Assembly: GCF_017565705.1 (NCBI RefSeq)
Contig: NZ_JAGDYL010000028.1
Location: 1-42,874, forward strand
Direction: 5' to 3'
DNA: 42,874 nucleotides
DNA from: Leucobacter ruminantium
Lineage (GTDB): Bacteria; Actinomycetota; Actinomycetes; Actinomycetales; Microbacteriaceae
Below are positions 386 to 37,636 of this stretch, piece by piece. A model generated the notes under the pieces. The model was given only the letters and a program-made list of their open reading frames with translations, made no database searches and was not told the origin of the DNA. Both the position numbers and the translations under genes were made by a program. Within the stretch, counting starts at the first letter, position 1, and every line of letters begins with the position of its first letter.

Positions 386-1411
386 CTAACGCAACTGCTG
401 GCACTTCGGGCAGAAGTGCGAACCGCGATTCATGAAACTCTCGCGCACGATCGGGCGTCCGCAGCGCGGGCACGGCGCGCCCTGGCGGCCGTAGGCGTTG
501 AGCGAGTGGGCGAAGTACCCCGCCTGCCCGTTGACGTTCACATACTGCGCATCGAAACTCGTGCCGCCTTCCGCCAGCGCCTGCGTGAAGACGTCGCGCA
601 GCGCCGAGAGCAGCTCGCGCGCCTTGCGCGGCCCGATTGCGGTTCCCGGGGTCTCGGGATGAATCCTCGCTCGCCACAGCGCCTCATCGGCGTAGATGTT
701 GCCGACGCCGCTCACCAGGGTCTGATCCAGCAGCAGCTTCTTCACCCCGACTCCACGCCGCCGCAGCGCGAGCAGAAATCCCGCATCGTCGAAGGCGGGG
801 TCGAGCGGATCGCGGGCGATGTGCAGGGCCTGACCGGGAATCAGGTCGATACCGTCGGGTGCGGGGAGCAGGCGATCGAGGGCGAGGGATCCGAACAGCC
901 GCTGATCCGCGAAGTCGAGCCGCAGTTCGCCGTGCGCGGGGTGTTCGATCCACAGGCGGATGCGCACGTGTCGATCATCGGGCGCGTCATGGGCGCGCAG
1001 CAGCATCTGACCGCTCATGCCGAGGTGCGCGAGGAGAGCGAGCTGATCGGGTTTCGACTCGTCGCGAGCTCCTCGCTCAACCAGCGGAATCGGAACCGAA
1101 CCGGGCTGCGACTCGTCGCCGGCTCCCCGCTCGACGGGGATCCACATGAACTTGCCGCGGCGCCGAGGCGCGTCGAGCACGAGCCCGGTCACCCGCCGCT
1201 CGAAGTCCGCGGCACGCGCGACCCCGGCCTCGAACGGCAGCCTGACCCCGTGTCCGCCCAGCCCGTCATCGCCGGGAAGCCCGTCGGCTCCGAGCGGCAG
1301 ATGGCGCTTGAGGGCGCGAGGATCCCTCACCTCGGCAGAGATGACGGTGGCACCCGTCACAGCCGGCGCGAGCCCGGCCCGCACCACCTCGACTTCGGGA
1401 AGCTCGGGCAC
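386..1411 (-). CDS. mutM: Formamidopyrimidine-DNA glycosylase (Fpg/MutM)
   Basis: Bifunctional DNA glycosylase/AP lyase that removes 8-oxoguanine and formamidopyrimidines. The N-terminus MPELPEVE supplies the catalytic Pro2 and Glu3 (after Met). The RRGKFMW segment carries the conserved lysine. The C-terminus ends in a four-cysteine zinc finger (CPRC...CPKC). At 341 residues it is longer than the usual 270-300. The excess lies in two insertions, residues ~38-65 and ~92-122. The second contains an internal repeat, VERGAGDESQP then VERGARDESKP, encoded by two copies of a repeat also found between genes here (see findings). It is the last gene of the coaD operon, 6 nt after rnc. Confidence 0.95.
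   Translation of the reverse strand: MPELPEVEVVRAGLAPAVTGATVISAEVRDPRALKRHLPLGADGLPGDDGLGGHGVRLPFEAGVARAADFERRVTGLVLDAPRRRGKFMWIPVERGAGDESQPGSVPIPLVERGARDESKPDQLALLAHLGMSGQMLLRAHDAPDDRHVRIRLWIEHPAHGELRLDFADQRLFGSLALDRLLPAPDGIDLIPGQALHIARDPLDPAFDDAGFLLALRRRGVGVKKLLLDQTLVSGVGNIYADEALWRARIHPETPGTAIGPRKARELLSALRDVFTQALAEGGTSFDAQYVNVNGQAGYFAHSLNAYGRQGAPCPRCGRPIVRESFMNRGSHFCPKCQQLR
1049..1135. repeat. Two tandem degenerate repeat units inside mutM
   Basis: The plus-strand segments 1049-1087 and 1103-1135 share CGACTCGTCGC, a variable base or two, GCTCC and CGCTC. The first unit ends CTCGCTCAACCAGCGG, which matches 15 of 16 bases at 16807-16822 in the intergenic hairpin after the pucR-type gene. 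The units stay in frame and encode the VERGA.DES.P peptide repeat of MutM. Confidence 0.6.
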
Positions 1412-1417
1412 GCCCGA

Positions 1418-2143
1418 CTACCTCTTACGGCGCTTCGAACGCAGCCGCTCGACCGCATCGCGGGCGGCCGCGAGCTCGGCCACCTTCTTGCTGGTGCCCG
1501 AACCGGTGCCCGTCACGCCGTCGAGCGTGACATGGGAGGTGTACCGGCGATCGTGGTCGGGCCCCGACCCCGTGGTGTCGTAGGGCGGGTGCGGCAGGCC
1601 GCGCTCCGCCGCGAGCTTCTGCAGCGAGGTCTTCGGGTCGAGGGTGACCGTGAACCGCTCGGGGTCCGCGAGCAGCGGGGCGATGAGGTCGAGCACGAAG
1701 CGATCGGCCGTCGCGGGGTCGGTCGAGAGGAAGACGGCGCCGATGATCGCCTCGACGGTGTCGGCGAGGATCGAGTCCTTGTTGCGTCCGCCGGTCTGCT
1801 TCTCCCCCTTGCCGAGGCGCAGCAGGGCACCGAGGTCGAGGCCGCGCGCAATCTCCGCGAGCGCGACCGTCGACACGAGCGCCGCGCGGCGCTTCGCGAG
1901 CTCGCCCTCGCTCAGCTCGGGGTAGTCGCGATACAGCTTGACGGTGACGGCCTGGCCGAGGATCGAGTCGCCGAGAAACTCGAGCCGCTCGTTGTGCGGG
2001 GCACCCCCGTGCTCGTAGGCCCAGGAGCGGTGCGTGAGCGCGAGCTCGAGCAGTTCGGGGTCGACCGTCACACCGAAGGGCATGAGAAAGCCGCCGGGGT
2101 CGCCCTGCGGCGCACCCGACGGCTCTCGAGTCTGCGACTCCAA
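1418..2143 (-). CDS. rnc: Ribonuclease III
   Basis: Double-strand-specific endoribonuclease that processes the rRNA precursor and other structured RNAs. The RNase III signature NERLEFLGDSIL is near residue 50, the second acidic cluster (DTVEAIIGAVF) near 130, and a dsRNA-binding domain fills the C-terminal ~70 residues (DPKTSLQKLAAERG...KKVAELAAARDAVERL). The length of 241 residues is normal. The listed start is a TTG one base after the rpmF stop, which suggests translational coupling. An internal ATG (MPFGV, residue 21) would give an N-terminus closer to other actinobacterial enzymes and cannot be excluded. Confidence 0.95.
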   Translation of the reverse strand: MESQTREPSGAPQGDPGGFLMPFGVTVDPELLELALTHRSWAYEHGGAPHNERLEFLGDSILGQAVTVKLYRDYPELSEGELAKRRAALVSTVALAEIARGLDLGALLRLGKGEKQTGGRNKDSILADTVEAIIGAVFLSTDPATADRFVLDLIAPLLADPERFTVTLDPKTSLQKLAAERGLPHPPYDTTGSGPDHDRRYTSHVTLDGVTGTGSGTSKKVAELAAARDAVERLRSKRRKR

Positions 2144-2144
2144 C

Positions 2145-2348
2145 TCAGGCGTCGGCGACCTTGCGGCCCTTGTACTCGAGGAAGAGGGCGTTGCCCTGCG
2201 AGTCCTCGACCACGCGGGCGCGGTGCGGGAGGCTGTAGACGGTGCGGCCGTTCTCGACGGTCTTCACCAGCTTGGGAGCCTCGGCCTTCCACGCCGAACG
2301 GCGGTGACGGGTGTTCGAGCGCGACATCTTCCGCTTGGGAACAGCCAT
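2145..2348 (-). CDS. rpmF: 50S ribosomal protein L32
   Basis: The 67-residue product begins [20 protein letters not shown], the typical L32 start. It contains no CxxC pair, so it is the zinc-independent form, as usual in actinobacteria. It lies between DUF177 and rnc, the standard order, with 13 nt to the DUF177 stop and one base to the rnc TTG. Confidence 0.97.
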
Positions 2349-2361
2349 GATGTTCTCTTTC

Positions 2362-2931
2362 CTACTTGCTTACGGGCCCGGGAGTCTCACCCGCACCAGG
2401 TTCATCTTCAGCCGCGGCGGCATTCGTCTGAAAACCCGCCAGCGCCGCCCACCTCGGATCGATGTCCGCATCGGGCGACCCCTCAGCCTCGGCATCGCGC
2501 AGCTCACCGGACTCGGGATCGAGTCCCGGACAGTCCGGGCGACACACAGGCTGAAACGGCAGTGCAAGCACTACCGCATCTCGGAGCGGGGGTTCAAGAT
2601 CCACGTGATCACCGTGAACCCCGTACTCGTCGGCCTCCGTAGGAGTATACGCGAAAAGCTCCTGAAATTCGATTTGCAACGGCGTGGCGAACTCATTCAG
2701 GCACCGACCGCACTCCGCGTGCATGGTCGTGCGCACCTCGGCCGACACCAGAATGCCCTCGTGCACCGACTCGAGACGCACATCGAGCGCCATCTCCTCA
2801 CCCTCGCGCACCTCGGCGAGCGCCTCCCCGAGTTTCTCGGGAACGGCGAAGCTGCGCGAGCGCTCGCGCATCTCACCAGGTCGGTTGATGAGATCGCGGA
2901 CGTTCTCCTGATAGACCTTGACGCCGGACAT
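2362..2931 (-). CDS. DUF177/YceD family protein
   Basis: A 189-residue protein of the family found upstream of rpmF in most bacteria. The family is linked to 23S rRNA accumulation and, in plants, to rRNA maturation. The visible landmarks are the paired cysteine motifs CGRCLNEF near residue 75 and CRPDCPG near 130, a possible metal site, with an acidic stretch between them. The C-terminal ~50 residues are low-complexity and rich in Ala, Glu and Pro. Its ATG overlaps the coaD stop (TGATG), so it is translationally coupled to coaD. The biochemical role is not established. Confidence 0.9.
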
Positions 2932-3422: not shown

Positions 3423-3428
3423 GCCATC

Positions 3429-3434
3429 AGCCTA
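3429..3434 (-). promoter_or_regulatory. -10 box of a leaderless coaD operon promoter
   Basis: TAGGCT on the minus strand, 6 nt from the coaD ATG, with no room for a Shine-Dalgarno sequence after the transcription start. Confidence 0.55.
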
Positions 3435-3482
3435 CGGGGTGCTGCCCGCGAGAACGCTGCGTTCGAGGGGATAAGGGAGAGA

Positions 3483-4184: not shown

Positions 4185-5575
4185 CGTGCCTCCTCGCTTT
4201 CCACGTTTCCCGATCCCTTCGGGGCGAGGGATCCCCCGCGCTCGCGCGCGTCTGCGTTGACCGGCAGCTCGGCCCGCAGCACCCAGCCCCCGCCCGCGGC
4301 GGCCGTCGGCCCCGCCCAGATCTCGCCGCCGAAGAAGCGGGCCCGCTCGCGGAGTCCCGCGATGCCGCGGCCGGATCCCAGCCCCGACTCGGGCGGGTGG
4401 GATCCCGCTGCCGGCCCGAAGTCGCGCACCTCGACGAGTGTGCGGTCGGGGGCTCTGCGCACGGACACCTCGGCGCGCGCACCGACGCCCGCGTATCGCA
4501 GCACGTTCGTGAGTCCCTCCTGCACAACGCGGTAGACCGCGAGATCCTGTCCGCGGTCCCCCGAGGCGTCACCGCTCACATCGAGGGCCACGCCGAGCCC
4601 GGCATCGCGGAAACCGCGGACGAGCTCGGGCAGGTCCTCGACGCCGGGTTGGGGCGCGAGCTCGGCCGCGTCCGACTCCTGCAGGGCGCCGAGCATGCGC
4701 CGCATCTCCGCGAGCGCGGTGCGGCCGGTCTCTGCGCTGCGCTCCATGGCCTCGGCCGCCGCATCGGGCGCGGCCGATACCGCGCGTGCGGCCCCCTCCG
4801 AGAGCGCGATCATCACCGAGACCGAGTGCGCGACGATGTCGTGCATCTCGCGGGCGATGCGCGAGCGCTCCTCGGCGACGGCAAGCTGCGCGAGCTGGTC
4901 CCTCTCTCTGGCGAGCTGATGGGCGCGCTCGATGACCGCTTCGAGATAGCGCCTCCGGTTGCCGAGGTTGATGCCGAGCAGCACCACCGCGAGGTACCAC
5001 ATCGCCGTCATCACCGACACCGCGATGAAATCGGCCGTGCCGAAGCCGTTGGCGTCGTTCTCCGCCAGCAGGGTGCCGCCCGGGCCGACGACCCCGGCCG
5101 ACAGTTCGGACCCCTGGGAGACGAAGTAGCCGACGATCGCGCCCGCGAGGGCGATGCCGTACCCGACCCAACCGGCGGACACGCTGCGGTATACGGGCAC
5201 CGCGTACAGCAGGAACAGGAGGGCCACGCCGTTCGGCAGCGTCTGCGCCGTCGGGTCGCCGAGCGTCAGCACCGTCACCGCGGTCAGGCCGATCAGGGGG
5301 AACCGGCGGCGGTAGAGCAGGGCCGCGGCGGTGACGAGCGCTCTCAGGAGAGCGAGCAGCCACCAGGCGCCGTGCAGGTAGTAGGGCTGTCCCCAGGCCG
5401 TGGCGACGCCGAACGCACCGGCGAGGTCGAGCAGCACGCCGAGGCCGCAGCCGATGAAGTACCAGACGACGATGAACACGTCGACGGCGAGCGGGTGCGC
5501 CGCGAGCGCGCGCCGCAGCACCCCTGGCGGGCGCGGGAGGCGCACCTCGGCGGCGATCGACGGTTCTGCGTTCAC
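4181..5575 (-). CDS. Sensor histidine kinase, HisKA_3 (NarX-like) type
   Basis: Membrane kinase partner of the adjacent response regulator. The first ~205 residues contain about five hydrophobic segments (for example 32-57, 70-87, 115-128, 135-153, 183-205) with little extracytoplasmic sequence. The dimerization/phospho-acceptor motif EERSRIAREMHDIVAHS places the phospho-acceptor at His245. The ATP-binding domain shows the N-box (VQEGLTNVLRYA) and the G-box (GRGIAGLRERARFFGG). The length is 464 residues. The GTG start is supported by a TAGGGT -10 box exactly 6 nt upstream. The pair lies between recG and coaD, which are usually closer together in related genomes. Confidence 0.93.
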   Translation of the reverse strand: MNAEPSIAAEVRLPRPPGVLRRALAAHPLAVDVFIVVWYFIGCGLGVLLDLAGAFGVATAWGQPYYLHGAWWLLALLRALVTAAALLYRRRFPLIGLTAVTVLTLGDPTAQTLPNGVALLFLLYAVPVYRSVSAGWVGYGIALAGAIVGYFVSQGSELSAGVVGPGGTLLAENDANGFGTADFIAVSVMTAMWYLAVVLLGINLGNRRRYLEAVIERAHQLARERDQLAQLAVAEERSRIAREMHDIVAHSVSVMIALSEGAARAVSAAPDAAAEAMERSAETGRTALAEMRRMLGALQESDAAELAPQPGVEDLPELVRGFRDAGLGVALDVSGDASGDRGQDLAVYRVVQEGLTNVLRYAGVGARAEVSVRRAPDRTLVEVRDFGPAAGSHPPESGLGSGRGIAGLRERARFFGGEIWAGPTAAAGGGWVLRAELPVNADARERGGSLAPKGSGNVESEEAR

Positions 5576-5587: not shown

Positions 5588-5658
5588 CTGACCGCCGCCC
5601 GTGCCGGGATCGGCCCCGGGTGCCGGGGCGTGGTACCGGGGTACCCCGCGATCCCTCA

Positions 5659-7860
5659 TCACGACTTCGCGAGGTTGTCGAGCAGCCCCGCCTCGTGCTC
5701 GCGGGCGAGCAGGGCGGCGAGCCCGGGGGCCGACCCGAGCTCGGGGTCGCGGTCGAGCAGCGCGCCCGCGACCTCGCGTGCGTGCTCGATGAGCTCGCCG
5801 TGCTCGGCCACGCGCAGCAGCCGCAGCGTCGAGCGGCCGCCCGACTGCGCGGTGCCGAGGATGTCGCCCTCCCTGCGCAGCTCGAGGTCGACCTCGGCGA
5901 GTGCGAAGCCGTCGGAGGTCGCGGCGATCGCGTCGATACGCTCGCGGGCGACGCTCCCCTGCTCGGCGGCGGTCATCAGCAGGCAGAGACCGGCGTGGCT
6001 GCCGCGGCCCACCCTGCCGCGCAACTGATGCAGCTGGGAGATGCCGAAGCGGTCGGCGTCGCGCACGATCATGATGGTCGCGTTGGGCACGTTCACGCCG
6101 ACCTCGATCACGGTGGTCGCAACGAGCACGGCGATCTCCCCCGCCGCGAAGGCCCGCATCACGCGATCCTTCTCAGGGCCGGGCATGGCGCCGTGCAGCC
6201 CCTCGATGGCGACTCCCGCGAAGTCGGGCCTGCCGCGCAGCTCGGCGACGGTGCCCTCGACCGTCGCGAGGGGACGCGACGGGCTGTCGCCGCCCTCGGT
6301 GTCCGGGGCGGCCTCGGGCTCCTCGTCTCCGGCTTCCCGCACCCCGGCCGAGATCGCGGGGCAGACCACGTAGACCTGGCGTCCGGCCGCGATGTCCTCG
6401 CGGGCGCGCGCCCAGACGCGCGCCGCGCGGTTTGGCATCTCGAGTTCGGGCACGGCGAAGGTCTCGATGCCGAGTCTGCCGGGCGGAAGCTCGCGGATCG
6501 TGGTCACCTCGAGGTCGCCGAACGCGGTCAGGGCGACGGTGCGAGGGATCGGCGTCGCGGTCATCGCGAGCACGTGCGGTGCGGATCCCTTGCGGCGCAG
6601 CGTCTCGCGCTGCTCGACGCCGAAGCGGTGCTGCTCGTCGACCACGATGAGACCGAGGTCGTAGAAGGAGACGTTCTCGCCGAGCAGCGCGTGCGTGCCG
6701 ACCGCGATCCGAGCGTTGCCCGAGGCGATCGAGAGCAGGGCGCGCTTGCGCTCGGCCGCCGGCATGCGTCCCGTCAGCAGCACCGGGTTCAACTCGGCGG
6801 CGAGATCGGGCCCCAGCGCCTCGACGACGGAGCGGAAGTGCTGCGCCGCGAGCACCTCGGTCGGTGCGAGCAGGGCGCTCTGCCCGTCGCCGCCCGCGAC
6901 CTGCAGCATCGCCCTGAGCGCCACGAGCGTCTTGCCCGAGCCGACCTCGCCCTGCAGCAACCGGTGCATGGGATGCGGGCGTGCGAGTTCTGCGGCGATC
7001 GTCTCGCCCGCGCGGCGCTGATCCCCCGTGAGTTCGAAGGGCAGTGCCGCGTCGAAGCGCGCGAGCGGCCCGCCGCCGTCCGCCGGGATCGGGCGCGGCG
7101 TGCTGGCCTCACCCTCGGCCCGCCTGCGCCGGTCGAGCAGTGCGAGCTGCAGTTCGAAGGCCTCCCGGAAGAGCAGGCTGCGCCTCGCCTCGCGGTAGTC
7201 GGCCTCGTGCTGCGGCCGGTGCACGAATTCGAGCGCCCGCCCGAGCGGCGCGATCCCTTCCGAGCGCAACACGTCGGCCGGCAAAGGATCGGGCACCTCT
7301 CCGAGCGCGTCGAGCACGAGACCGATCGACTTCTGCACCGTCCAGCTCGGCATCTGCGCGGTCGCCGGGTAGATCGGCACCGGCGTCTCGGCCCACGCCT
7401 TCGCCGCGGCCTCGTCGAGCTTCTCGCCGCCCGGCGCGTCGTCGCGGTCGTCGAAGAGCTCGTACTCCGGGTGCTGCAATTGCAGCTGCCCGCGGTAGTC
7501 GCTCACCTTGCCCGCGAAGATGCCGCGCCTGCCGGGCACGAGCTCGCGGATGCGCCACGACTGGTTGAAGAAGGTGAGGGTCAGCGATCCCTCGCCGTCG
7601 GTGATGCGCGCCTCCAGAATGCTGCCGCGCCTGCGCTGCATCTGCCGCTCCCGCACGTCGAGCACCTGGGCGACGACCGTGATCTGCTCGCCCGATGGCA
7701 GCCCCCGCAGCGGCGTGAGCTCACCGCGGCGCGAGTAGCGGCGCGGCAGGTGCATGAGCAGTTCGCCGACGGTGTGCACGTCGAAGGCGCGCGCGAGCGG
7801 CTTCGCGGTGCGCGCGCCGACGACGCCGTCGAGGCGGCTGTCGAGCGTGACGCGGGTCAT
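5659..7860 (-). CDS. recG: ATP-dependent DNA helicase RecG
   Basis: Branch-migrating helicase that remodels stalled forks and Holliday junctions. The N-terminal wedge/OB region (residues ~1-240) includes the OB-like stretch ITVVAQVLDVRERQ. The motor has Walker A GEVGSGKT at 304-311, Walker B DEQH at 408-411 and the TATPIPRT motif near 440. The C-terminal helicase half includes the conserved QLHQLRGRVGRG. At 733 residues it is full length. It is transcribed divergently from rsmD across a 100-bp gap. A TAGCCT -10 box sits 6 nt before the ATG. Confidence 0.97.
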   Translation of the reverse strand: MTRVTLDSRLDGVVGARTAKPLARAFDVHTVGELLMHLPRRYSRRGELTPLRGLPSGEQITVVAQVLDVRERQMQRRRGSILEARITDGEGSLTLTFFNQSWRIRELVPGRRGIFAGKVSDYRGQLQLQHPEYELFDDRDDAPGGEKLDEAAAKAWAETPVPIYPATAQMPSWTVQKSIGLVLDALGEVPDPLPADVLRSEGIAPLGRALEFVHRPQHEADYREARRSLLFREAFELQLALLDRRRRAEGEASTPRPIPADGGGPLARFDAALPFELTGDQRRAGETIAAELARPHPMHRLLQGEVGSGKTLVALRAMLQVAGGDGQSALLAPTEVLAAQHFRSVVEALGPDLAAELNPVLLTGRMPAAERKRALLSIASGNARIAVGTHALLGENVSFYDLGLIVVDEQHRFGVEQRETLRRKGSAPHVLAMTATPIPRTVALTAFGDLEVTTIRELPPGRLGIETFAVPELEMPNRAARVWARAREDIAAGRQVYVVCPAISAGVREAGDEEPEAAPDTEGGDSPSRPLATVEGTVAELRGRPDFAGVAIEGLHGAMPGPEKDRVMRAFAAGEIAVLVATTVIEVGVNVPNATIMIVRDADRFGISQLHQLRGRVGRGSHAGLCLLMTAAEQGSVARERIDAIAATSDGFALAEVDLELRREGDILGTAQSGGRSTLRLLRVAEHGELIEHAREVAGALLDRDPELGSAPGLAALLAREHEAGLLDNLAKS

Positions 7861-7960: not shown

Positions 7961-8605
7961 GTGACCAGAATCATCGCGGGCGCCGCCGGATCCCTCCGCC
8001 TCGAGGTGCCGAAGGCCGGCACCCGGCCCACGAGCGACCGGGTGCGCGAGGCGATCTTCTCGGCCCTCGAATCCTGGGGCCTCGTCGACGGCGCGCGCGT
8101 GCTCGACCTCTACGCCGGTTCGGGTGCGCTCGGCCTCGAAGCGGCGAGCCGCGGCGCCTCGGCGGTGACGCTCGTGGAGCGCCACGCGCAGGCGGCGCAG
8201 GTGGCCGGCCGCAACGCACGAACGGTGCTGGGAGCCTTCGGCCGCGGTAGCGGGAAGGGCGGCAGAGGCAGCGAGGGATCGGCCCCCGAGATCGTGGTCG
8301 TGAAGCAGTCCGTGCAGACCTTCCTCGAGTCGACGCCCCCAGGTGGCTCGTCCTTGGCGGGCGACGGGGATCCCTCGCTCTGGGATGTCGCGCTGCTCGA
8401 CCCGCCCTACGACCTCGAGGAGACCGAGCTCGCGGGGAACCTCGCCGCGCTCGTGCCGCTGCTCTCGGCGGACGCGGTCGTGCTGGTCGAGCGGTCGAGC
8501 CGATCCCCCGAGCCGTCCTGGCCCGCCGGTCTGAGGCCGCTCCGCGACCGCCGCTACGGCGAGACCGCGCTGTGGTGGGCGGAGCCGACGCTTCCCGCCG
8601 CTTGA
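7961..8605 (+). CDS. rsmD: 16S rRNA (guanine966-N2)-methyltransferase RsmD
   Basis: SAM-dependent methyltransferase acting on G966 of 16S rRNA. The family start TRIIAGAAGS, the conserved TRPTSDRVREAIFSAL, the SAM-binding segment VLDLYAGSGALGLEAASRGA and the catalytic motif LLDPPYDL are all present. At 214 residues it is ~25 longer than usual; the extra is a Gly/Ser-rich loop near residues 88-107. The GTG start fits the TACCCT box 6 nt upstream. The stop codon is part of a TTGAGCGA sequence that begins a dispersed repeat (see 8597-8625). Confidence 0.95.
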   Translation: MTRIIAGAAGSLRLEVPKAGTRPTSDRVREAIFSALESWGLVDGARVLDLYAGSGALGLEAASRGASAVTLVERHAQAAQVAGRNARTVLGAFGRGSGKGGRGSEGSAPEIVVVKQSVQTFLESTPPGGSSLAGDGDPSLWDVALLDPPYDLEETELAGNLAALVPLLSADAVVLVERSSRSPEPSWPAGLRPLRDRRYGETALWWAEPTLPAA

Positions 8606-11317: not shown

Positions 11318-11534
11318 GTGACCGTCCTCGTCCGCCCGGGCCGGGCTGCCACCCCGAGCGCGTGCCGCAGGGGTAGTAACGATTCTACGACAACTGCGGA
11401 CGGTGTACGAAAAAGGACGTGGGCGAGATTTTCGCGAGGGATCCCTGTCGGAAAGGGGCCGCCCGCTCCCTCGGAACGGCCTCAGCCCGACGATGCACCC
11501 GACGGCCGCGCACGCCGGCGCGCGGCGCTGCGCA
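11318..11534. other. Intergenic region between the propeller-like gene and lsr2
   Basis: Holds the upstream region of the propeller-like gene, with possible promoter sequence TTGTCG and TAGAAT on the minus strand near 11378-11396, one GAGGGATCC word at 11436-11444, and a weak GGCCG/CGGCC stem near 11457-11482 downstream of lsr2. No gene is seen. Confidence 0.5.
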
Positions 11535-14889: not shown

Positions 14890-15072
14890 GGTGATTCTCC
14901 TTGTTGCCGGGCTCCCGGAGGGAGCGGTCTCGAAGCGACCCGGGGGCTGCACCCGAGGGCCGGCGTGATTCTGGATCAGGATAGCTCCGCCCTCTCCCAG
15001 CCTGCGGTGCCACAATGTAGGAAATCAGTTGCGAGATTCACCAGATTGGCAGAATAGATTCGAGAGGGATCC
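14890..15072. promoter_or_regulatory. Divergent promoter region between gabT and the pucR-type gene
   Basis: 183 bp. On the minus strand TATCCT (plus 14979-14984) is a candidate gabT -10 box without a recognisable -35, as expected for an activated promoter. On the plus strand TAGATT at 15055-15060 may be the regulator's -10 box. A GCTCCC/GGGAGC stem (14911-14916/14920-14925) lies in the gabT leader. The GAGGGATCC word at 15064-15072 abuts the regulator's ATG and doubles as its ribosome-binding site. Confidence 0.4.
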
Positions 15073-26000: not shown

Positions 26001-27509
26001 ATGGAAGTCGTCATCGCCGTCGACTCATCGACCACGGCGAGCAAGGCCGTCGCCTTCTCGCTCGACGGAGCCGTGCGCGCCATCGGCCGAGCACCGATCT
26101 CGCTCTCCGCGCCGCGAACCGGCTGGCGAGAGCAGGATCCGACGGAGTGGTGGAGCACGACCGCCGCCGCGCTACGGGAGGTGTCGACCCGCCTGCGGGA
26201 GCGGGGAGACGAGACGCTGGCCGTCGGCATCACGCATCAGCGGGAGAGCTTCGCGTGCCTGGATGAGGAGAACGACCCCGTGCGGCCGGCGATACTCTGG
26301 CTCGACGGCCGACCGGGGGAACAGGTCCGCTCGCTCGGCACCCCCGAGGTGCACGATCTCTCGGGCAAACCGCCCTCGACGACCCCGAGCTTCTACAAAC
26401 TCGCCTGGCTGGCCGAGAACGAGCCAGAAGCGCTCGATCGGACGGCCCGGATCGCGGACGTGCACGCCTACCTCTCCCTCGCGATGACCGGTCGATTCGC
26501 CACGAGTTCCGCGTCCGCCGACCCGACCGGCCTCGTCGATCACCGATCCGGCCGGTGGTCGGAGCGGCTGCTCGAACTCGCCTCCGTCCGTATCGAACAG
26601 TTGCCCGAGATCGTGTCTCCCGGAAGCCCGATCGGCGGACTCCTGCCCGAGACGGCCGAGCTCACGGGCCTGCCCGTGGGGTTGCCCATCATCGCAGGAG
26701 GTGGCGACGGGCAGTGCGCCGGCCTCGGCTCCGGCATCGTCGCCCCGGGACAGGCCTATCTCAGCCTCGGCACCTCGATCGCGCTCGGCACCCACAGCGA
26801 GCGCGTCGATCCCTCCCCCAGCTATCGGGTCATGGCGAGCCCGCTGGGGCACGGCCACACGCTCGACGCGTTCATCGCCAGCGGCTCGTACTCGGTCTCG
26901 TGGTTCCGCAAGAGCTTCGCGCTGCCCGCCGATGACACCGCCGGGCACCGCGACGAAGATCCGTTCGAGCTCGCGGTGGAGCGATCCGAGGGCCGCATGC
27001 AGTCGCTGATGTTCGTGCCCCACCTCTCGGGTGGAGCCACCCCGTACTGGGACGACCGGATGAGAGGCGCGTTCGTCGGCATCAGCGACGACCACACCGC
27101 GGCGGAGTTCTACCGCGCCGTGCTCGAGGGGCTCGCGTTCGAGATACGTCTGCTGTGCGACGGCTTCGAGCACGCAGGCAGCCCCATCGAAGGCATCGCC
27201 GTCACGGGCGGGGGCACCGCCTCCGACCGGTGGCTCCAGATCATCTCCGACGTCACGGGTCGACCGCTCGAACTCGCGTGCACCACCGAGGCCACCGCCC
27301 TCGGCGCCGCGATCCTCGCGGCGGCCGCCACCCGCTTCGACGGAGACATCGAAGCTGCCGCCGCGGCCATGACCCGACCCGAACGAAGGGTCGAGCCCCA
27401 CCCGGACCGCGCCGAGCGCTACGCGGAGATCTTCCCCCTGTACGCCACGGTGGCCCCTGCCCTGGCGTCCTTCGACTCCGGTGCCGCCGCGCTCGGACTC
27501 ACCAGCTAG
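26001..27509 (+). CDS. FGGY-family carbohydrate kinase
   Basis: 502 residues, full length. The first phosphate-binding motif is [14 protein letters not shown]. The sugar-binding region includes GITHQRESF and [10 protein letters not shown]. The second domain has [24 protein letters not shown] and the adenosine motif [15 protein letters not shown]. The family covers xylulo-, ribulo-, rhamnulo-, fuculo-, glycerol and erythritol kinases, and motifs alone do not decide between them. It probably phosphorylates the ketose or polyol supplied by the dehydrogenase. Good RBS (GAAGGAG) before the ATG; 36 nt after the previous gene. Confidence 0.92.
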
Positions 27510-28887: not shown

Positions 28888-29910
28888 TCAGGAGCCCGGC
28901 GGCACGACCGTGTAGGGATCCCAGCCGCTCGGACGGCAGGCGGCTCCGTCGAGGGTGAGCGATCCCTCGCCCTCCGGGACGACTCGCCCGATCGCACGGA
29001 ACCCCTCGGGCAGCGCGGCGTCGGGCGCGAAGGTCGCCAGGAGGCCGTGATCCTCGCCGCCCGTGAGCATCGCGACGAGCGGCACCGCCTGCCCCCGCTG
29101 CACACCGAAACCCGACTCGAGCGCGGCCGTCGAGAGATCGATCGCGACTCCGCTCGCGCCTGCGAGGCGCGCCGCGTCGAGCGAGAGCGAGTCCGAGACG
29201 TCCATCATCGCGGTCGCCCCCGCCTCGGCCGCGACGGCGCCGAGCCCGATCGGGGGCGTAGGCGCGAGCTGCGCCGCGAGCGCGGCGGCGTGCCGTTTCC
29301 GCAGCCCGGGCAGGGCGCGCCCATGCGCCGTACCGTCGGCCTCGGCCGACTCCGCGAAGAGCAGCGACAGGCCGAGGCCGGCGAGCCCGAGATCGCCGGC
29401 GTAGGCCACCGTATCGCCCGGCCTGGCGCCCGTCCGCGTCACGGCGGGCCGTCCGTCGAGCTCGCCGAGTGCCGTCACCGCGGCGACCAGCACCGGGGCG
29501 CGCCCCAGGTCGCCGCCGATCACGCCGCAGCCGGGCGCGAGGGCCCGGCAGGCCGCATCGAGCCCGCGCGCGATCTCCTCGAGCAGTGACACCGGCGTGT
29601 CCCCCGGCACGGCGAGCGAGACCGTGAGCGCGGTGGGACGCGCGCCCATTCCCGCGACGTCGGAGAGGTTCGTCGCGGCCAGCTTCCAGCCGAGTTCGTA
29701 TCCCGAGTGCCAGGCGGAGCGGAAGTCGGGGCCCTCGATCATCGTGTCGCTCGTCACCACGAGCTCGCCCCGCACCCGCATGACGGCGCAGTCGTCGCCC
29801 GGCCCGAGGCTCGCCGCGTCCGCCGCACCGAGCTGCGCGAGCACGCGCGCGAGCACGCCGCTCTCGCCAAGCTCGCCGACGGTCTGGGCGGATCCCTCGC
29901 TTCTGATCAC
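28888..29910 (-). CDS. thiL: Thiamine-monophosphate kinase
   Basis: Phosphorylates thiamine monophosphate to the diphosphate cofactor. 340 residues of the ThiL/PurM-like fold: N-terminal LGPGDDCAVM, VTSDTMIEGPDF (usually VDGVHF), the conserved NLSDVAGMGARPTALTVSLA, GGDLGRAP and MMDVSDSLSLDAARLA. The GTG start is supported by TAGCGT 6 nt upstream. It converges with the DeoR-type gene (13 nt between stops), which marks the right boundary of the accessory block. It is divergent from the DUF3515 gene, with only 64 bp between starts. Confidence 0.94.
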   Translation of the reverse strand: MIRSEGSAQTVGELGESGVLARVLAQLGAADAASLGPGDDCAVMRVRGELVVTSDTMIEGPDFRSAWHSGYELGWKLAATNLSDVAGMGARPTALTVSLAVPGDTPVSLLEEIARGLDAACRALAPGCGVIGGDLGRAPVLVAAVTALGELDGRPAVTRTGARPGDTVAYAGDLGLAGLGLSLLFAESAEADGTAHGRALPGLRKRHAAALAAQLAPTPPIGLGAVAAEAGATAMMDVSDSLSLDAARLAGASGVAIDLSTAALESGFGVQRGQAVPLVAMLTGGEDHGLLATFAPDAALPEGFRAIGRVVPEGEGSLTLDGAACRPSGWDPYTVVPPGS

Positions 29911-30637: not shown

Positions 30638-30667
30638 GAGGGATCCGGCCGACCCCGCGAGGGATCC
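30638..30667 (+). repeat. Two direct GCGAGGGATCCGG copies in the intergenic region
   Basis: The GAGGGATCC word occurs at 30638-30646 and again at 30659-30667, 21 nt apart, each preceded by GC and followed by GG. No coding function is seen here. Confidence 0.7.
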
Positions 30668-30689: not shown

Positions 30690-31829
30690 CTAGTACGCCG
30701 GGCGCTTCGCGAGCGCGAGTTCGACGAGCTCGGTGATGAGCTCCGTGTAGCCGAGCCCCGATTCCTCCCACAGCCGCGGGTACATCGAGATCGGCGTGAA
30801 GCCGGGCATCGTGTTGATCTCGTTGAGCACGGGGCCGTCGTCGGTCAGGAAGAAGTCGATCCTCGCGAGCCCGTCGCACTGCGCCACCTCGAAGGCCCGC
30901 ACCGCGGCGTCGCCGATCGCCGCGAGCTCGGCCTCGGTCACCGAGGCGGGCAGTTCGAGCTCCACTCCGGCCGCGCCGAGATACTTCGCCTCGAAGTCGT
31001 AGAACTCGCGCCCCGTGAACACGATCTCGCCGACCACGGTGCTCGCCCGCGGAGCACCCCCGTCGCGGCCGCCGAGCACGGCGATCTCGATCTCACGACC
31101 GACGACGCCGGACTCGACGAGCACCATGCGGTCCTCCGCGAAGGCGAGTTCGAGGGCCGCGGGAAGCCCCTCCGGCCCGGTGACCCGGCTCACGCCGACG
31201 CTGGATCCCGCGCGCGCCGGCTTCACGAAGAGCGGGTAGCTCAGCCCTTCGTCGAGCGATGAGATGAGCGAGGGATCCCTGTCGAGCTCACCCTGGGTGA
31301 TCATGCGCCACGGAGCCACCGGGATGCCGGCCTCGGACAGCACCGTCTTCACGGCGTGCTTGTCCATGCACAGCGCCGAGCCGAGCACGCCGCTGCCCAC
31401 GTAGGGCAGATCTACGAGGTCGAAGAGGCCCTGGATCGTGCCGTCCTCGCCGTAGGGGCCGTGCAGCATCGGCAGCACTGCGTCCACGTGGCCGAGGGAG
31501 CGGATATCGCCGTCGGAGTGGATCACGGTGAGCGATCGTGTCTCGGTCGAGGCGGGCCAGAGCACCCGCGTACCGTTGTCGAGGACCTCGGGCAGCGCCG
31601 CGGCGTCGAGCCGGTAGCCGTCGAGCTCGTCCTCGCGCATCAGCACCGTCGCGCCGTGCTTGGTGATGCCGACGGGGATCACGTCGAACAGCTCGCGATC
31701 GATGGCGTGCAGCACGCCGGCCGCGGTGACGCAGCTGATGCCGTGCTCGCTCGAGCGGCCGCCGAACAGCAGCACGAGGGTGCGCTTCGCCCGCACGGCG
31801 GCCTCCGGGCCGAATTCGTTCTCGGTCAT
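30690..31829 (-). CDS. ddl: D-alanine--D-alanine ligase
   Basis: Makes the D-Ala-D-Ala dipeptide for peptidoglycan. 379 residues of the ATP-grasp fold: N-terminal LLFGGRSSEHGISC, central LPMLHGPYGEDGTIQG, ATP site LFVKPARAGSSVGVS and C-terminal metal/substrate motif FLTDDGPVLNEINTMPGFTP. The residues around EINTMPG are the normal D-Ala-D-Ala type rather than the lactate-ligase type found in glycopeptide resistance. I chose ATG 31829, which overlaps the gpsA stop by 4 nt; a longer frame upstream is a shadow of gpsA. Confidence 0.95.
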   Translation of the reverse strand: MTENEFGPEAAVRAKRTLVLLFGGRSSEHGISCVTAAGVLHAIDRELFDVIPVGITKHGATVLMREDELDGYRLDAAALPEVLDNGTRVLWPASTETRSLTVIHSDGDIRSLGHVDAVLPMLHGPYGEDGTIQGLFDLVDLPYVGSGVLGSALCMDKHAVKTVLSEAGIPVAPWRMITQGELDRDPSLISSLDEGLSYPLFVKPARAGSSVGVSRVTGPEGLPAALELAFAEDRMVLVESGVVGREIEIAVLGGRDGGAPRASTVVGEIVFTGREFYDFEAKYLGAAGVELELPASVTEAELAAIGDAAVRAFEVAQCDGLARIDFFLTDDGPVLNEINTMPGFTPISMYPRLWEESGLGYTELITELVELALAKRPAY

Positions 31830-32947: not shown

Positions 32948-33708
32948 AAGCGTCCCGTCTCGCTCTGCTGGTGCTTGCTCGGATCCCACAGCTCAGCGGG
33001 CGGCTGCTCGCCGCGCAGTTCGGCGAGCAGCGCGGTGATCGCGTCCATCAGATCCTTCGTCGCCTCCGACACGACCCGCTGGTCGAGGCCCCGGTCGCGG
33101 TAGCGGCTGAGGTCGAGGGGCTCACCCACGGCGACCTCGATCGTCTTCCGGGGGAAGGGGTGGATCCGCTTGCCGTAGCGCGGCATCAACCGCTGCGTGC
33201 CCCAGTGGGCGACGGGTATCAGCGGGATGCCCGATGCGAGGGCGAGGCGCACCGCTCCGCTCTTACCGCGCATCGGCCACAGCTCGGGATCCCTCGTCAG
33301 TGTTCCCTCGGGATACACGATCACGCCCGCCTGCCGCTCGATCAACTGGTTCGCAGCGCCCATCGGACTGTTGCCGGAGCGGCTGGATCCCTCGCGCTCC
33401 ACAGGGATCTGCCCCGACGCCCGCAGCACCCATCCGAGCACCGGAACCTTGAAGAGACTCGCCTTCGCCATGAAGCGCGGCAGACGCCCGAGGTGCCACA
33501 CCGCGGCGCCCATGGCGATCGGGTCGATCTCGCTGTAGTGATTGGGGGCGAGGATGAACGGGCCGGAGGGGAGCTTCGAGGTCGGGGTGAAGCGGTAGCG
33601 CACCATGAGGGACCACAGTGGAAGAATCATCCCGGCGAGCAACCAGAACATCGAGGGTCGGCGTTTCTCTGCCGACGGCCGGCTCCGCAGCTGCACCGTG
33701 TGAGTCAT
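32944..33708 (-). CDS. plsC: 1-acyl-sn-glycerol-3-phosphate acyltransferase
   Basis: Adds an acyl chain during phosphatidic acid synthesis. 254 residues. The catalytic HxxxxD box is in LAPNHYSEIDPIA, the second block is GQIPVERE, the third is VIVYPEGTLTRDP and the fourth is IPLIPVAHWG. One N-terminal hydrophobic segment (FWLLAGMILPLWSLMV) anchors it to the membrane. I chose ATG 33708 (MTHTVQLRS) because a GATAAT -10 box lies exactly 6 nt upstream. It starts the plsC-gpsA-ddl operon, separated from murA by a strong hairpin. Confidence 0.93.
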   Translation of the reverse strand: MTHTVQLRSRPSAEKRRPSMFWLLAGMILPLWSLMVRYRFTPTSKLPSGPFILAPNHYSEIDPIAMGAAVWHLGRLPRFMAKASLFKVPVLGWVLRASGQIPVEREGSSRSGNSPMGAANQLIERQAGVIVYPEGTLTRDPELWPMRGKSGAVRLALASGIPLIPVAHWGTQRLMPRYGKRIHPFPRKTIEVAVGEPLDLSRYRDRGLDQRVVSEATKDLMDAITALLAELRGEQPPAELWDPSKHQQSETGRF

Positions 33709-33720: not shown

Positions 33721-33727
33721 CCGGACG

Positions 33728-33766
33728 CCGCGGCCTCCCGACGGCATATCCGCCGGGAGGCCGCGG
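33728..33766 (-). terminator. murA terminator hairpin
   Basis: CCGCGGCCTCCC and its exact complement (12-bp stem) enclose a 15-nt loop with further CGG/CCG pairing. The flanking CCCGGA/TCCGGG can extend it. It lies 44 nt after the murA stop and just upstream of the plsC promoter. Confidence 0.6.
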
Positions 33767-33810
33767 AATCCGGGCGCAGAATCACCGCCGCGCCCGGAGT
33801 GTCGGAGATC

Positions 33811-35217
33811 TCAGCTCTCGAAGATGAAATCGGCGCCCAGCTGGCGCAGCTTCTCGATGAAGTTCTCGTAGCCGCGCGAGATGATCCCGAGGTTCGTGAC
33901 CTTCGTCTGCCCCTCGGCCGTGAGCCCGGCGATGAGGTAGCTGAAGCCGCCGCGCAGATCGGGCACCTCGATCTCGGCGCCCGAGAGCGGGGTGGGGCCG
34001 GTGATCACCGCGGCCTGTTCGAACTCGCGACGCAGCACGCGACGCGTCTCGTCGTGCAGCCCGTCCTTGTAGACGCGGATGTCGGCGCCCATCTTGTTGA
34101 GCGCGTCGGTGAAACCGAAGCGGTTCTCGTAGACGGTCTCATGGATGGTCGACACGCCCTCCGCCTGCGTGAGCGCCACGACGAGCGGCTGCTGCCAGTC
34201 GGTCATGAAGCCGGGGTGCACGTCGGTCTCGATCGTGACCGGCTTGAGCGGGCCGCCCGGATGCCAGAAGCGGATGCCGTCGTCGTGCACGTCGAAGTCC
34301 CCGCCGACCTTGCGGAAGACGTTCAGGAAGGTCATCATCTCCTCCTGCTTCGCCCCGCCGACGAACACGTCGCCCCCGGTCGCGAGAGCGGCCGAGGCCC
34401 AGCTCGCGGCCTCGTTGCGGTCGAAGATGGCGCGGTGGTCGTAGCCGCGCAGCTCCTTCACGCCCTCGATGAAGATGACGCGGTTGGGTTCGACCGTGAT
34501 GATCGCGCCCATCTTCTGCAGGATGCAGATGAGGTCGATGATCTCGGGCTCGATGGCCGCGTTGCGCAGCTCGGTCTGCCCCTCGGCGAGCACGCTCGTG
34601 AGCAGCACCTGCTCGGTCGCCCCGACCGACGGGTAGGGCAGCTCGATGTTCGCTCCCTTGAGCCCGTTCGGCGCGGTGAGGCTGATGCCGCTCGGCAGCT
34701 TCTCGACGACGGCGCCGAACTTGCGCAGCGCGTCGAGGTGGAAGTCGATCGGGCGGTCGCCGATGCGGCAGCCGCCGAGATCGGGGATGAAGGCCTCGCC
34801 GAGGCGGTGCAGCAGCGGGCCGCAGAACAGGATCGGGATGCGCGAGGAACCCGCGTGCGCGTCGATGTCGGCGTGGTGCGCCTGCTCGACGTTCGAGGGA
34901 TCCAGGCGCCACTCGCCCGGATCGTCGCCCTTCGTGATCAGCACGCCGTGCAGGGCGAGCAGACCGGCGACCACGCGGATGTCGGAGACGTTCGGCACGT
35001 TGCGCAGGATGCTCGGGGTCTGGCCCAGGAGGGCCGCAACCATCGCCTTCGGCGCGAGGTTCTTCGCGCCGCGCACCTCGATACGGCCCTTCAGCGGCCG
35101 TCCGCCGTTGATGATGATCTCGTCGGAGGTCAGGCCGACGCGTGCGCCCGCCTGCTGCGCATCGTGCTTGAGACCCCCGTCGGGGGTCGCCTCAGGGGTC
35201 TGGTCGTTGTCGCTCAC
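33811..35217 (-). CDS. murA: UDP-N-acetylglucosamine 1-carboxyvinyltransferase
   Basis: First committed step of peptidoglycan synthesis: enolpyruvyl transfer from PEP to UDP-GlcNAc. The active-site lysine is in VRGAKNLAPKAM, and the PEP-attacking cysteine, the fosfomycin target, is present in LGGCRIGDRPIDFHLDAL. The C-terminal DLRGGFSYLIAGLTAEG matches the family. With the GTG start (RBS GAGGAG, 4 nt away) it has 468 residues, ~40 more than usual; the surplus is a hydrophilic N-terminal tail. The start codon lies just after the leuD stop, so it is probably cotranscribed with leuCD. Confidence 0.95.
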   Translation of the reverse strand: MSDNDQTPEATPDGGLKHDAQQAGARVGLTSDEIIINGGRPLKGRIEVRGAKNLAPKAMVAALLGQTPSILRNVPNVSDIRVVAGLLALHGVLITKGDDPGEWRLDPSNVEQAHHADIDAHAGSSRIPILFCGPLLHRLGEAFIPDLGGCRIGDRPIDFHLDALRKFGAVVEKLPSGISLTAPNGLKGANIELPYPSVGATEQVLLTSVLAEGQTELRNAAIEPEIIDLICILQKMGAIITVEPNRVIFIEGVKELRGYDHRAIFDRNEAASWASAALATGGDVFVGGAKQEEMMTFLNVFRKVGGDFDVHDDGIRFWHPGGPLKPVTIETDVHPGFMTDWQQPLVVALTQAEGVSTIHETVYENRFGFTDALNKMGADIRVYKDGLHDETRRVLRREFEQAAVITGPTPLSGAEIEVPDLRGGFSYLIAGLTAEGQTKVTNLGIISRGYENFIEKLRQLGADFIFES

Positions 35218-35225
35218 TCGGCTCC

Positions 35226-35819
35226 TCAAGACAGGGTGGTCGTCGGCATCCAGCTGGGACGCGTCGCCTCGAAATCGGAGATGGCCTGCTCGTCGCGCAG
35301 GGTCAACGAGATATCGTCGAGCCCCTCGCGCAGCCGCCACCGGGTGTACTCATCAATCTGGAACGGCACCGTCGTATTCCCGACCGACACCGTGCAGTCC
35401 TCGAGGCTCACCGTGAGCTCGACGCCGGGATCGGCGTCGATCGCGGCCCACAGCCGCTCGACGTCGGCCTCCTCGACCTGGGCGGCGAGCAGCCCCTGCT
35501 TGCCCGAGTTGCCCCGGAAGATGTCGGCGAAGCGCGCCGAGATCACGACCTTGAAGCCGTAATCGCGCAGCGCCCAGACGGCGTGCTCGCGCGACGACCC
35601 GGTGCCGAAGTCGGGGCCCGCGACGAGGATCTGCGCGTTCGCGAAGACCGGCTGGTTGAGCACGAACTCGGGATCCTGCCGCCAGTGGTGGAAGAGCGCG
35701 TCGTCGAAGCCCGTCTTGGTGACGCGCTTCAGGAAGACGGCCGGGATGATCTGGTCGGTATCGACGTTGGAGCGCTTCAGGGGAGCCGCGACGGCGGTCA
35801 GCGTGGTGAACTTGTCCAT
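35226..35819 (-). CDS. leuD: 3-isopropylmalate dehydratase small subunit
   Basis: Small (swivelling) subunit of isopropylmalate isomerase in leucine synthesis. 197 residues. It begins [20 protein letters not shown], with [11 protein letters not shown] and the substrate-binding [17 protein letters not shown], followed by the [15 protein letters not shown] segment. It is 3 nt after leuC and 8 nt before murA. Regulated with leuC by the leader described at 37501. Confidence 0.97.
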
Positions 35820-35822
35820 GGC

Positions 35823-37391
35823 TCAGGCCTCGACCTTCTCGTCTGCGCCGATCTCTGCGACGGGGGTGATGGTGAGACGGCGGCGGATCTTCGCGGCCTG
35901 CTCCTCGGTCAGCGGCGGGGCGTCGTGCGTGATCCCTCTCGCCGCGTCCTCCTGCAGGTCCCAGGGGCTCGAGAGCGTTCCGCGGATCGCAGTGGCCGCC
36001 GCAACGAGCGGCGACACCAGGTGCGTGCGCCCGCCCTTGCCCTGGCGCCCCTCGAAGTTGCGGTTCGAGGTGGAGGCGCAGCGCTCCCCCGGCGCCAGCT
36101 GGTCGGGGTTCATGCCGAGGCACATCGAGCAGCCGGCGAAGCGCCACTCGCCGCCGAACTCCTCGACGATCCGGTCGATGCCCTCGGCCTCGGCCTCGAG
36201 GCGCACGCGGGCCGAGCCCGGCACCACCATGAGGCGAACGCCGTCGGCCTTCTTCTTGCCCTTGATGAGCTCGGCGAAGGTGCGCAGGTCGTCGAGGCGG
36301 CTGTTCGTGCACGAACCCATGAACACCGCGTCGACCGCGATCTCCTTCATGGGCGTGCCCGCCTCGAGGTCCATGTACTCGAGCGCGCGCTCGGCGGCTG
36401 CGCGCTCGTTCGGATCGACGATCTCGGCGGGGTTCGGCACGCGGTCGCTCAGCAGCACCCCCTGGCCGGGGTTGGTGCCCCACGTCACGAACGGCTCGAG
36501 CTCGTTCGCGTCGATGAACACCTCCCTGTCGAAGACGGCGCCCTCGTCGGTGGGCAGCGTCTTCCAATAGGCGACCGCCGCGTCCCAGTCGGCGCCCTTC
36601 GGCGCGTGATCGCGGCCCTTCACGTACTCGAAGGTCGTCTCGTCGGGCGCGACCATGCCCGCGCGGGCGCCGGCCTCGATCGACATGTTGCAGATCGTCA
36701 TGCGGCCGTCCATGCTCAGCGAGCGGATCGCCGAGCCGCGGTATTCGAGCACGTAGCCCTGCCCGCCGCCCGTGCCGATCTTCGCGATCACGGCGAGGAT
36801 GATGTCCTTCGCGGTGACCCCGGGGCGCAGCTCGCCCTCGACGTTGATCGCCATGGTCTTCAACGGCTTCAGCGGCAGCGTCTGGGTCGCCATGACGTGC
36901 TCCACCTCGCTCGTGCCGATGCCGAATGCGAGCGCGCCGAATGCGCCGTGGGTCGAGGTGTGGCTGTCACCGCAGACGACCGTGATGCCGGGCATCGTGA
37001 GGCCGAGCTGCGGGCCGACGACGTGCACGATGCCCTGTTCCTTATCGCCGAGCGGGTGCGCGCGCACGCCGAACTCCGCGACGTTCTTGCGCAGCGTCTC
37101 GATCTGGACCCGGCTCGTCGGATCCTCGATCTCCTTGGTGATGTTGACCGTCGGCGTGTTGTGATCCTCGGTCGCGATCATGAGGTCGACGCGGCGCAGC
37201 GGGCGGCCCGCCATGCGAAGGCCGTCGAACGCCTGCGGGCTCGTCACCTCGTGGATGAGGTGGAGGTCGATGTAGATCAGGTCGGGATTGCCGTCCTCGC
37301 CCTTCACCACGGTGTGGGCGTCCCACAGCTTCTCGGCGAGGGTGCGGGGACGCGGAGCGGTCGCGGGTTCTGACGCGTGCTGATCAGTCAT
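35823..37391 (-). CDS. leuC: 3-isopropylmalate dehydratase large subunit
   Basis: Iron-sulfur subunit of isopropylmalate isomerase. 522 residues in the aconitase fold. The cluster cysteines are in [14 protein letters not shown] and [11 protein letters not shown]. Other family landmarks are [31 protein letters not shown] and the early [19 protein letters not shown] chose ATG 37391 (MTDQHASEP); the further reading frame runs into the leader. The 110 nt between leader peptide and gene hold the proposed attenuator. The C-terminus has ~25 extra residues. Confidence 0.97.
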
Positions 37392-37460
37392 GATTCTGTG
37401 TGCTTCTCTTCTCGGAAATTCTGCGCTGCACGAACACATGCTCGGCTCCGTGCGCGGTGG

Positions 37461-37516
37461 ATCGGCCATGCGAGAACTCCGCGACGGGTGGGCCGATGGG
37501 CTAGACCCCGTCGCGG
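37461..37516 (-). promoter_or_regulatory. Alternative hairpins of a leucine attenuator
   Basis: Stem A pairs CCCGTCGCGG (37507-37516) with CCGCGACGGG (37479-37488), 10 bp perfect; the first arm lies inside the end of the leader peptide gene. Stem B pairs GGCCGAT (37491-37497) with ATCGGCC (37461-37467), 7 bp. One arm of B is in the loop of A, so the two compete. This is the expected layout for ribosome-dependent control; no T-rich terminator is obvious. Confidence 0.55.
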
Positions 37517-37545
37517 CGTCGAAGAAGAAGCTGCCGCATACGCAT
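37501..37545 (-). CDS. leuCD leader peptide, 14 residues, Leu-rich
   Basis: A small frame reading [14 protein letters not shown] and then a TAG stop, about 110 nt before leuC. Its three leucines are consecutive and all use CTT, a codon that is rare in this GC-rich DNA, where CTC and CTG dominate. A TAGACT -10 box sits 7 nt before the ATG, so the leader would be translated from a leaderless RNA start. Scarcity of charged tRNA-Leu would stall the ribosome here and shift the downstream hairpins, raising leuCD expression. Leucine leader peptides are known in Streptomyces and Corynebacterium; this one is recognised by layout. Confidence 0.65.
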
Positions 37546-37552
37546 GAGCAAG

Positions 37553-37558
37553 AGTCTA
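37553..37558 (-). promoter_or_regulatory. -10 box of the leuCD leader promoter
   Basis: TAGACT on the minus strand, 7 nt before the leader peptide ATG. Confidence 0.5.
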
Positions 37559-37604
37559 TCACCGGGCCGGGCCGGGAGTCGCAGCGCACGGGCTCTCATG
37601 ATTC

Positions 37605-37636
37605 CGCGAGGGATCCCTGCGGCGGGATCCCTCGCG
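37605..37636 (-). terminator. terC terminator made of two inverted GAGGGATCC words
   Basis: CGCGAGGGATCCC (37605-37617) and its exact complement (37624-37636) form a 13-bp stem with a 6-nt loop, 17 nt after the terC stop. A short AA/TT extension allows a slightly longer stem. Confidence 0.6.

Follow-up and report, generated by a model that had tools for sequence, protein, structure and literature searches.

A short DNA word over-represented in the genome of Leucobacter ruminantium and confined to it among the genomes searched

The 42,874-nucleotide contig NZ_JAGDYL010000028.1 of the actinobacterium Leucobacter ruminantium carries genes for RsmD, ThiL and an acyltransferase, and a short word recurs in it on both strands, inside genes and between them. 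This whole stretch is called the window here. One frame, which holds the words at 6543 and 7586, is presumably recG; another, with the word at 34895, we take to be murA. An earlier note had listed 16 copies of GAGGGATCC, 9 on the plus and 7 on the minus strand. All 16 were found exactly where it had placed them, against a mean of 0.95 and a maximum of 4 in 100 dinucleotide-preserving shuffles. It had also counted eleven copies without the last C, and the window indeed contains 27 copies of the shorter GAGGGATC; that the word is usually preceded by GC is true of 11 of the 16.

The word and its sites

The genome analysed (G000) comprises 3,305,448 bases in 69 contigs, of which the window is contig C18. 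MurA relatives and the naming of RsmD relatives place this genome in Leucobacter. It contains 1,244 copies of GAGGGATCC, 629 forward and 615 reverse. The same word read backwards, a weak control that contains CTAG, gave 0 and 1 copies. A 0.80-Mb sample of the genome contained GCGAGGGATCC 159 times where an order-4 Markov model of the same genome predicts 6.7, and GAGGGATCC 295 times where it predicts 37. The over-representation reported in the earlier note is thus confirmed, with counts far from the Markov expectation, and its core can be refined. GCGAGGGATCG is likewise enriched, 9.5-fold, so the last C of GAGGGATCC is a preference only. The exact core comprises eight bases, GAGGGATC, flanked by loosely preferred ones (G, G and C before it, C or G after it). 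Base changes within the core mostly abolish the enrichment, with partial tolerance at the first base (3.7 to 7.1-fold) and weak tolerance of some changes at the last two (up to 4.1-fold, small counts).

The density of GAGGGATC is 883 per Mb in 0.90 Mb of core stretches, compared with 66 per Mb in G023 and G050, two congeners of which 0.80 Mb was sampled and which alone supply all expectations described here as coming from relatives. The first 0.80-Mb sample gave 726 per Mb, from which we extrapolate an estimate, not a count, of ~2,400 copies in the genome. When 6- to 9-mers with at least 60 occurrences were ranked by their ratio to the congeners, GAGGGATC, its sub-words and words overlapping it topped the list. 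This ranking and the analyses of core density and flanks excluded eight word-poor loci, described below.

The 584 copies of GAGGGATC divide into 441 that overlap predicted genes and 143 outside them, in agreement with the claim that the word lies both in and between genes. The genes were called in the genome's own stretches by a simple script and not by a published gene finder, and the intergenic densities depend on these calls. In core gaps of 15-600 bp (shorter and longer gaps and the eight word-poor loci excluded), the density is 2.92 per kb between tandem genes, 3.17 between convergent and 1.95 between divergent ones; predicted coding DNA of the whole sample has 0.675 per kb. The 431 sites lying wholly within genes use all six reading frames (sense 100/41/69, antisense 89/90/42), and codon usage is therefore no explanation of the word. 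The strand neutrality seen in the window extends to 1.06 Mb of stretches (398 plus, 404 minus; per-locus strand chi-square 22.3 for 42 loci). A strand-polarised word was excluded, as there is no local strand bias at the scales sampled.

Inverted pairs of the word 8-30 bp apart number 17, with ~2.4 expected, and 32 overlapping palindromes GAGGGATCCCTC account for 64 of the 584 copies. Two inverted pairs were folded and both form strong hairpins: that at 37608-37633 in the window (Table 1) and one in the sampled stretch L008 (z -7.15). Folding of the direct pair at 30638-30666 is not unusual (z -0.69). Two other sets of words are over-represented. GAGTCGAAACC and GGTTGAGCGAG, which occur 18 and 11 times in the 0.41 Mb of L001-L019 and the window, resemble the arms of an inverted repeat present in dispersed copies. 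Runs of at least nine C/G are strongly over-represented as well; CCCCCCCCC was observed 40 times in 0.80 Mb, against ~2 expected.

Table 1. Copies of the core word in the window, with the base or bases that follow each copy, and the intergenic inverted pair.
Feature	Position	Strand	Next	Remarks
GAGGGATC	884..891	+	C	
GAGGGATC	1321..1328	-	C	
GAGGGATC	4226..4233	+	C	
GAGGGATC	5650..5657	-	G	
GAGGGATC	6543..6550	+	G	in recG frame; consensus of 31 aligned relative rows is GCGGGATC
GAGGGATC	7586..7593	-	G	in recG frame
GAGGGATC	7989..7996	-	C	in rsmD
GAGGGATC	8273..8280	+	G	codes EGS of RsmD, retained in sister P0002 beside indel
GAGGGATC	8369..8376	-	C	codes DPS of RsmD, retained in P0002 beside indel
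GAGGGATC	11436..11443	+	CCT	
GAGGGATC	15064..15071	+	C	ends one base ahead of ATG at 15073
GAGGGATC	15111..15118	-	G	
GAGGGATC	18085..18092	-	T	
GAGGGATC	22582..22589	+	G	
GAGGGATC	23552..23559	-	T	
GAGGGATC	26808..26815	-	G	
GAGGGATC	28961..28968	-	G	codes EGS near ThiL C-terminus, retained in sister P0241
GAGGGATC	29891..29898	-	C	codes EGS at ThiL N-terminus, retained in P0241
GAGGGATC	30638..30645	+	C	direct pair, first member
GAGGGATC	30659..30666	+	C	direct pair, second member, 21 bp apart
GAGGGATC	31270..31277	+	CCT	
GAGGGATC	33288..33295	-	C	residues RDP common to aligned congeners; uncommon codon AGG
GAGGGATC	33386..33393	-	C	codes EGS of acyltransferase, retained in sister P0122
GAGGGATC	34895..34902	+	C	in murA frame
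GAGGGATC	35931..35938	-	A	
GAGGGATC	37608..37615	+		intergenic hairpin, left arm
GAGGGATC	37626..37633	-		intergenic hairpin, right arm
Inverted word pair, intergenic	37596..37646	-		15-bp inner stem, -34.9 kcal/mol, z -6.55

Restriction to one genome and origin of the copies

The word is confined to one genome among those searched, in a comparison set in which each species is represented by one genome. GCGAGGGATCC occurs 646 times in this genome, whereas none of 395 other genomes of the order has more than 45 copies; for GGCGAGGGATC the figures are 719 here and no more than 22 in each of 395 other genomes in the phylum. GAGGGATCC occurs 2 to 164 times in 53 other Leucobacter genomes, and its counts reach 273 among 248 other sampled genomes of the family. 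The genome with 273 copies (G214) was considered as a second bearer and rejected: in a 0.15-Mb sample it is CGGATCCG that abounds, and the density of GAGGGATC is no more than 84 per Mb. Four genomes of a single genus of the family (G086, G160, G216 and G266) have 148-179 copies of GAGGGATCC apiece, exceeding most of the family. Among viral contigs, three stretches were returned, each with one 16-bp palindrome GCGAGGGATCCCTCGC.

It was also considered whether the two congeners have words of their own. Among 10-mers with at least 25 occurrences, the highest ratios to the order-4 model in 0.40-Mb samples of G023 and G050 are only 3.7 and 3.8, and this candidate was rejected; in the present genome GCGAGGGATC reaches 11.1 and AGGGATCCCT 23.0. 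The bare 8-mer has a ratio of 3.9, compared with 3.5 and 3.4 for the best 8-mers of G023 and G050. Since these values are similar, the contrast rests on the counts, the longer words and the comparison with relatives. Genome-wide words this strong are known in few groups. Consistent with the earlier note, which knew of no description for this group, the matches listed from searches of open-licence full texts included nothing relevant on the word or on uptake words in the group.

Alignment with the congeners provided insights into how the copies arose. Ungapped alignments to G023 or G050 gave 117 comparisons at 97 distinct sites; in 3 of these the relative has the identical 8-mer, and base agreement is 68%. 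For 150 control 8-mers of equal G+C, pooled over 6,059 comparisons, 34.5% are identical and base agreement is 84%; the lowest values among the controls belong to AGGGATCG and AGGGATCC, both of which overlap GAGGGATC itself. The alignments therefore indicate that most alignable copies arose in this lineage by substitution in place, with insertion possible at some gapped sites. In an earlier test on 87 alignable sites, 25 were gapped in every relative; the other 62 aligned without gaps to one relative or more, and five of these had an identical counterpart in one or more. An ancestral-consensus analysis found none conserved among the 19 of 825 sites with at least two ungapped relatives, a thin sample, and we therefore rely on the comparison of G023 and G050 with the control 8-mers. 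In the 31 rows behind the consensus at the recG site, G023 and G050 can each occur twice.

Residues can be conserved where the codon is not. At 33288-33295 the RDP residues are common to eight aligned acyltransferases, although the word there uses AGG, a codon that makes up 5.6% of the arginine codons in this genome; 65 of its 743 AGG codons fall in words. Three sister proteins, P0002, P0122 and P0241, probably from one separate 156,036-bp contig, are 95, 99 and 97% identical to the RsmD, acyltransferase and ThiL of the window, respectively. (P0123, identical to a window protein, was left out of this comparison.) They retain the residues coded by the words at 8273, 8369, 28961, 29891 and 33386, where the other aligned congeners differ; in RsmD these residues stand beside indels. 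This retention is likely a shared feature and is no proof that the word itself is conserved, as it concerns proteins only and is partly expected at such identity.

The word is rare in mobile-type stretches. Eight of 40 stretches, the window included, have 0-2 words (L009 1, L017 0, L100 1, L104 0, L108 0, L110 0, L115 0 and L116 2), and in seven of the eight the G+C content is lower, 0.58-0.66 compared with 0.69 for the sample. Four of them carry mobile-type genes: L104 with type I restriction genes, L100 with a TrwC relaxase, L017 with genes that read like those of phages, and L108 with genes that read like insertion sequences. L017 also encodes an MmeI-family restriction-modification enzyme (L017:785-3559; PDB 5hr4, E 4.5e-221). 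The phage-like first 4.7 kb of L245 has no word.

What the word may do

In our analysis the word appears to resemble a DNA uptake sequence more than the cyanobacterial highly iterated palindrome HIP1, the two likenesses that the earlier note had proposed. Most of the word's anatomy agrees with the uptake part of that proposal. The HIP1 part fared less well: the word is no palindrome, and three methyltransferase families yielded none particular to this genome. Our tentative reading, to which we give a probability of about 0.4, is that GAGGGATC is a lineage-specific self-recognition word that works like a DNA uptake sequence; membership of the known uptake sequences is not claimed. Fragments that bear the word would be favoured by a competence protein that binds DNA, either ComEA or a Tad/Flp pilin. 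Recombination with conspecific DNA would then spread words born by point mutation and restore lost ones, and intergenic inverted pairs may be reused as RNA hairpins. We infer the binding of the word, the biased uptake and the spread by transformation.

Several lines of background are compatible with such a function. In the actinobacterium Micrococcus luteus, Flp/Tad pili belong to the transformation apparatus, and Tad together with ComEA/ComEC is frequent in actinobacteria (PMC4322843). Neisserial uptake sequences are biased to the core genome, absent from recent acquisitions and found as inverted pairs in terminators (PMC2397512). In the present genome comEA is intact, and the secretion ATPase family PF00437 gives one strong match, whose locus is labelled Tad-type because TadE-like genes lie nearby. 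An uptake word in a Gram-positive actinobacterium, operating through a Tad/Flp pilus and ComEA/EC and representing a single-lineage, independent origin of the Neisseria/Haemophilus strategy, is conceivable, at slightly longer odds than the uptake-like function as such.

A number of observations weigh against this reading. To our knowledge, no uptake word is known in Gram-positive bacteria. The uptake machinery as a whole is not intact: comEA and Tad-type genes are present, and comEC is split. Residues 1-365 of a congener's protein match contig C15 (L245:4743-6511) and residues 358-910 match contig C48 (L224:7615-11032), both away from contig ends, with the split at an ...SGANC... segment. The C48 part begins beside a 551-residue serine recombinase and a DUF5906 protein, which we read as a phage primase/helicase, and one element presumably lies between the two parts. 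Transformation should therefore now be off unless the element excises. The genome has no PF00437 match of the PilB-like strength seen in seven congeners, G013, G027, G031, G041, G045, G046 and G052. A ComEC match is found in 51 of the 53 other Leucobacter genomes, and in none of the 53 does the word reach this level. Some uptake words are reported to be evenly spaced; the spacing here is not even but Poisson-like, with a coefficient of variation of 0.89 compared with 0.923 +/- 0.037 in simulations (eleven loci were excluded, as was the initial 9.2 kb of L224). Most copies are genic, unlike the neisserial sequences, which are mostly intergenic (PMC2397512). The mismatch halo is nearly absent from the 8-mer: single-mismatch enrichment, computed without the eight word-poor loci and L224, is +0.06 against relatives and -0.37 against the order-4 model. 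The values are +0.93 and +0.19 for the 10-mer and +6.84 and +4.27 for the 12-mer; known uptake words show +2.0 and +4.8 (PMC1939737). The pattern of word-poor DNA is also imperfect: clear mobile genes are lacking in L009, L110 and L115, and two words do occur in the initial, phage-like 9.2 kb of L224.

A similarly truncated ComEC match was seen in G003, G015, G018, G026, G028 and G049, and confirmed in sequence for G003 and G049 only. A related recombinase adjoins the truncated gene in G003; in G049 the 2.5 kb around it yielded none. Within Leucobacter, comEC may serve repeatedly as an attachment site.

A less likely alternative is a HIP-like word. A methyltransferase would act inside GAGGGATC, and methylation-guided repair or mutation bias would ratchet near-matches to the full word, as Elhai proposed for HIP1 and its alternates (PMC4390886). 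GAGGGATC contains GATC and shares GGGATC with GGGATCCC, one of the lineage-specific replacement words of cyanobacteria, and its core density is slightly below the 1000-2000 per Mb of alternate HIPs (PMC4390886). The near-neighbours GCGGGATC (159 observed, 302 expected from relatives) and GACGGATC (37 and 68) are depleted, and the excess of one-off forms of the 8-mer falls chiefly on the first base and more weakly on the last two; both observations are in favour of this reading. HIPs are palindromic, however, and this word mostly is not, only the copies within GAGGGATCCCTC being so arranged. The core is 5/8 G+C, under the at least 75% of alternate HIPs (PMC4390886). The only PF01555 match here is of a family with matches in 42 of 54 Leucobacter genomes. 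PF00145 likewise has one match, on contig C11, where a relaxase and a single word lie in the first 20 kb; for PF02086 a genome-wide search gave nothing. No match in these three families is both particular to this genome and located in core DNA (PF02384 and others were not searched genome-wide), and the MmeI-like and type I enzymes sit on stretches without the word. In addition, actinobacteria usually lack MutS/MutL.

Somewhat less likely again is a site for a species-peculiar chromosome-organising, Chi-like recombination or other DNA-binding protein, kept by weak genome-wide selection. The exact core with its flank preferences and the surplus of palindromes and inverted pairs are compatible with such a site, and some inverted pairs would suit terminators. 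Against it stand the Poisson-like spacing and the strand balance, which argues against Chi and KOPS (FtsK-orienting polar sequences). Within a genus, systems of this kind are as a rule conserved, yet the word reaches this level in none of the 53 congeners.

A miniature mobile or REP-type (repetitive extragenic palindromic) repeat spread by insertion is very improbable. The 25 of 87 alignable sites that are gapped near the word in every aligned relative would fit it, but the 62 ungapped sites largely refute it through their origin in place, and conserved residues are retained while codons change, as with AGG. Flank information fades within a few bases, and a longer dispersed repeat is excluded because this decay is immediate. 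Finally, chance, codon usage, base composition or an assembly artefact, for which nothing was found in favour, are refuted as full explanations by the shuffles, the Markov expectation, the use of six frames and of intergenic DNA, the lack of the word in two congeners of similar composition and, at the protein level only, the residues that a close relative retains at five informative word sites.

Comparison with known systems

If the uptake reading is right, self-recognition would enter Gram-positive transformation. Selection and molecular drive are both still under discussion as the force that spreads uptake words (PMC1939737, PMC2397512), and a word found in one lineage, with 53 congener genomes that lack it at this level, offers a clean before-and-after comparison. 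If it is instead a methylation word, HIP-type drive would reach beyond cyanobacteria and to a non-palindromic sequence.

Among known systems, the REP, REPIN (paired REP) and MITE (miniature inverted-repeat transposable element) families share with the word only that some copies form intergenic inverted pairs; here there is no extended consensus, and the copies are mostly genic and arose mainly by substitution and not by insertion. Chi, KOPS and AIMS (architecture imparting sequences) are likewise exact octamers spread along the chromosome, whereas this word has no strand polarity and is not common to the genus. Like HIP1 and the alternate HIPs (GCGATCGC, GGGATCCC), it is a GATC-containing octamer with about one copy per kb of core DNA. 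It differs from them in being non-palindromic, in the lower G+C of its core, in its restriction to one Leucobacter genome among those sampled, and in the lack of a matching genome-particular methyltransferase in three families. The DNA uptake sequences (DUS) of Neisseriaceae and the uptake signal sequences (USS) of Pasteurellaceae differ from it in that the host here is an actinobacterium with an interrupted comEC and no PilB-like ATPase match, and in that its copies are mostly genic with almost no mismatch halo on the 8-mer. In common with DUS and USS, it is a short exact word present on both strands in hundreds to thousands of copies, genic as well as intergenic, with inverted pairs at intergenic hairpins, a core-genome bias and lineage specificity.

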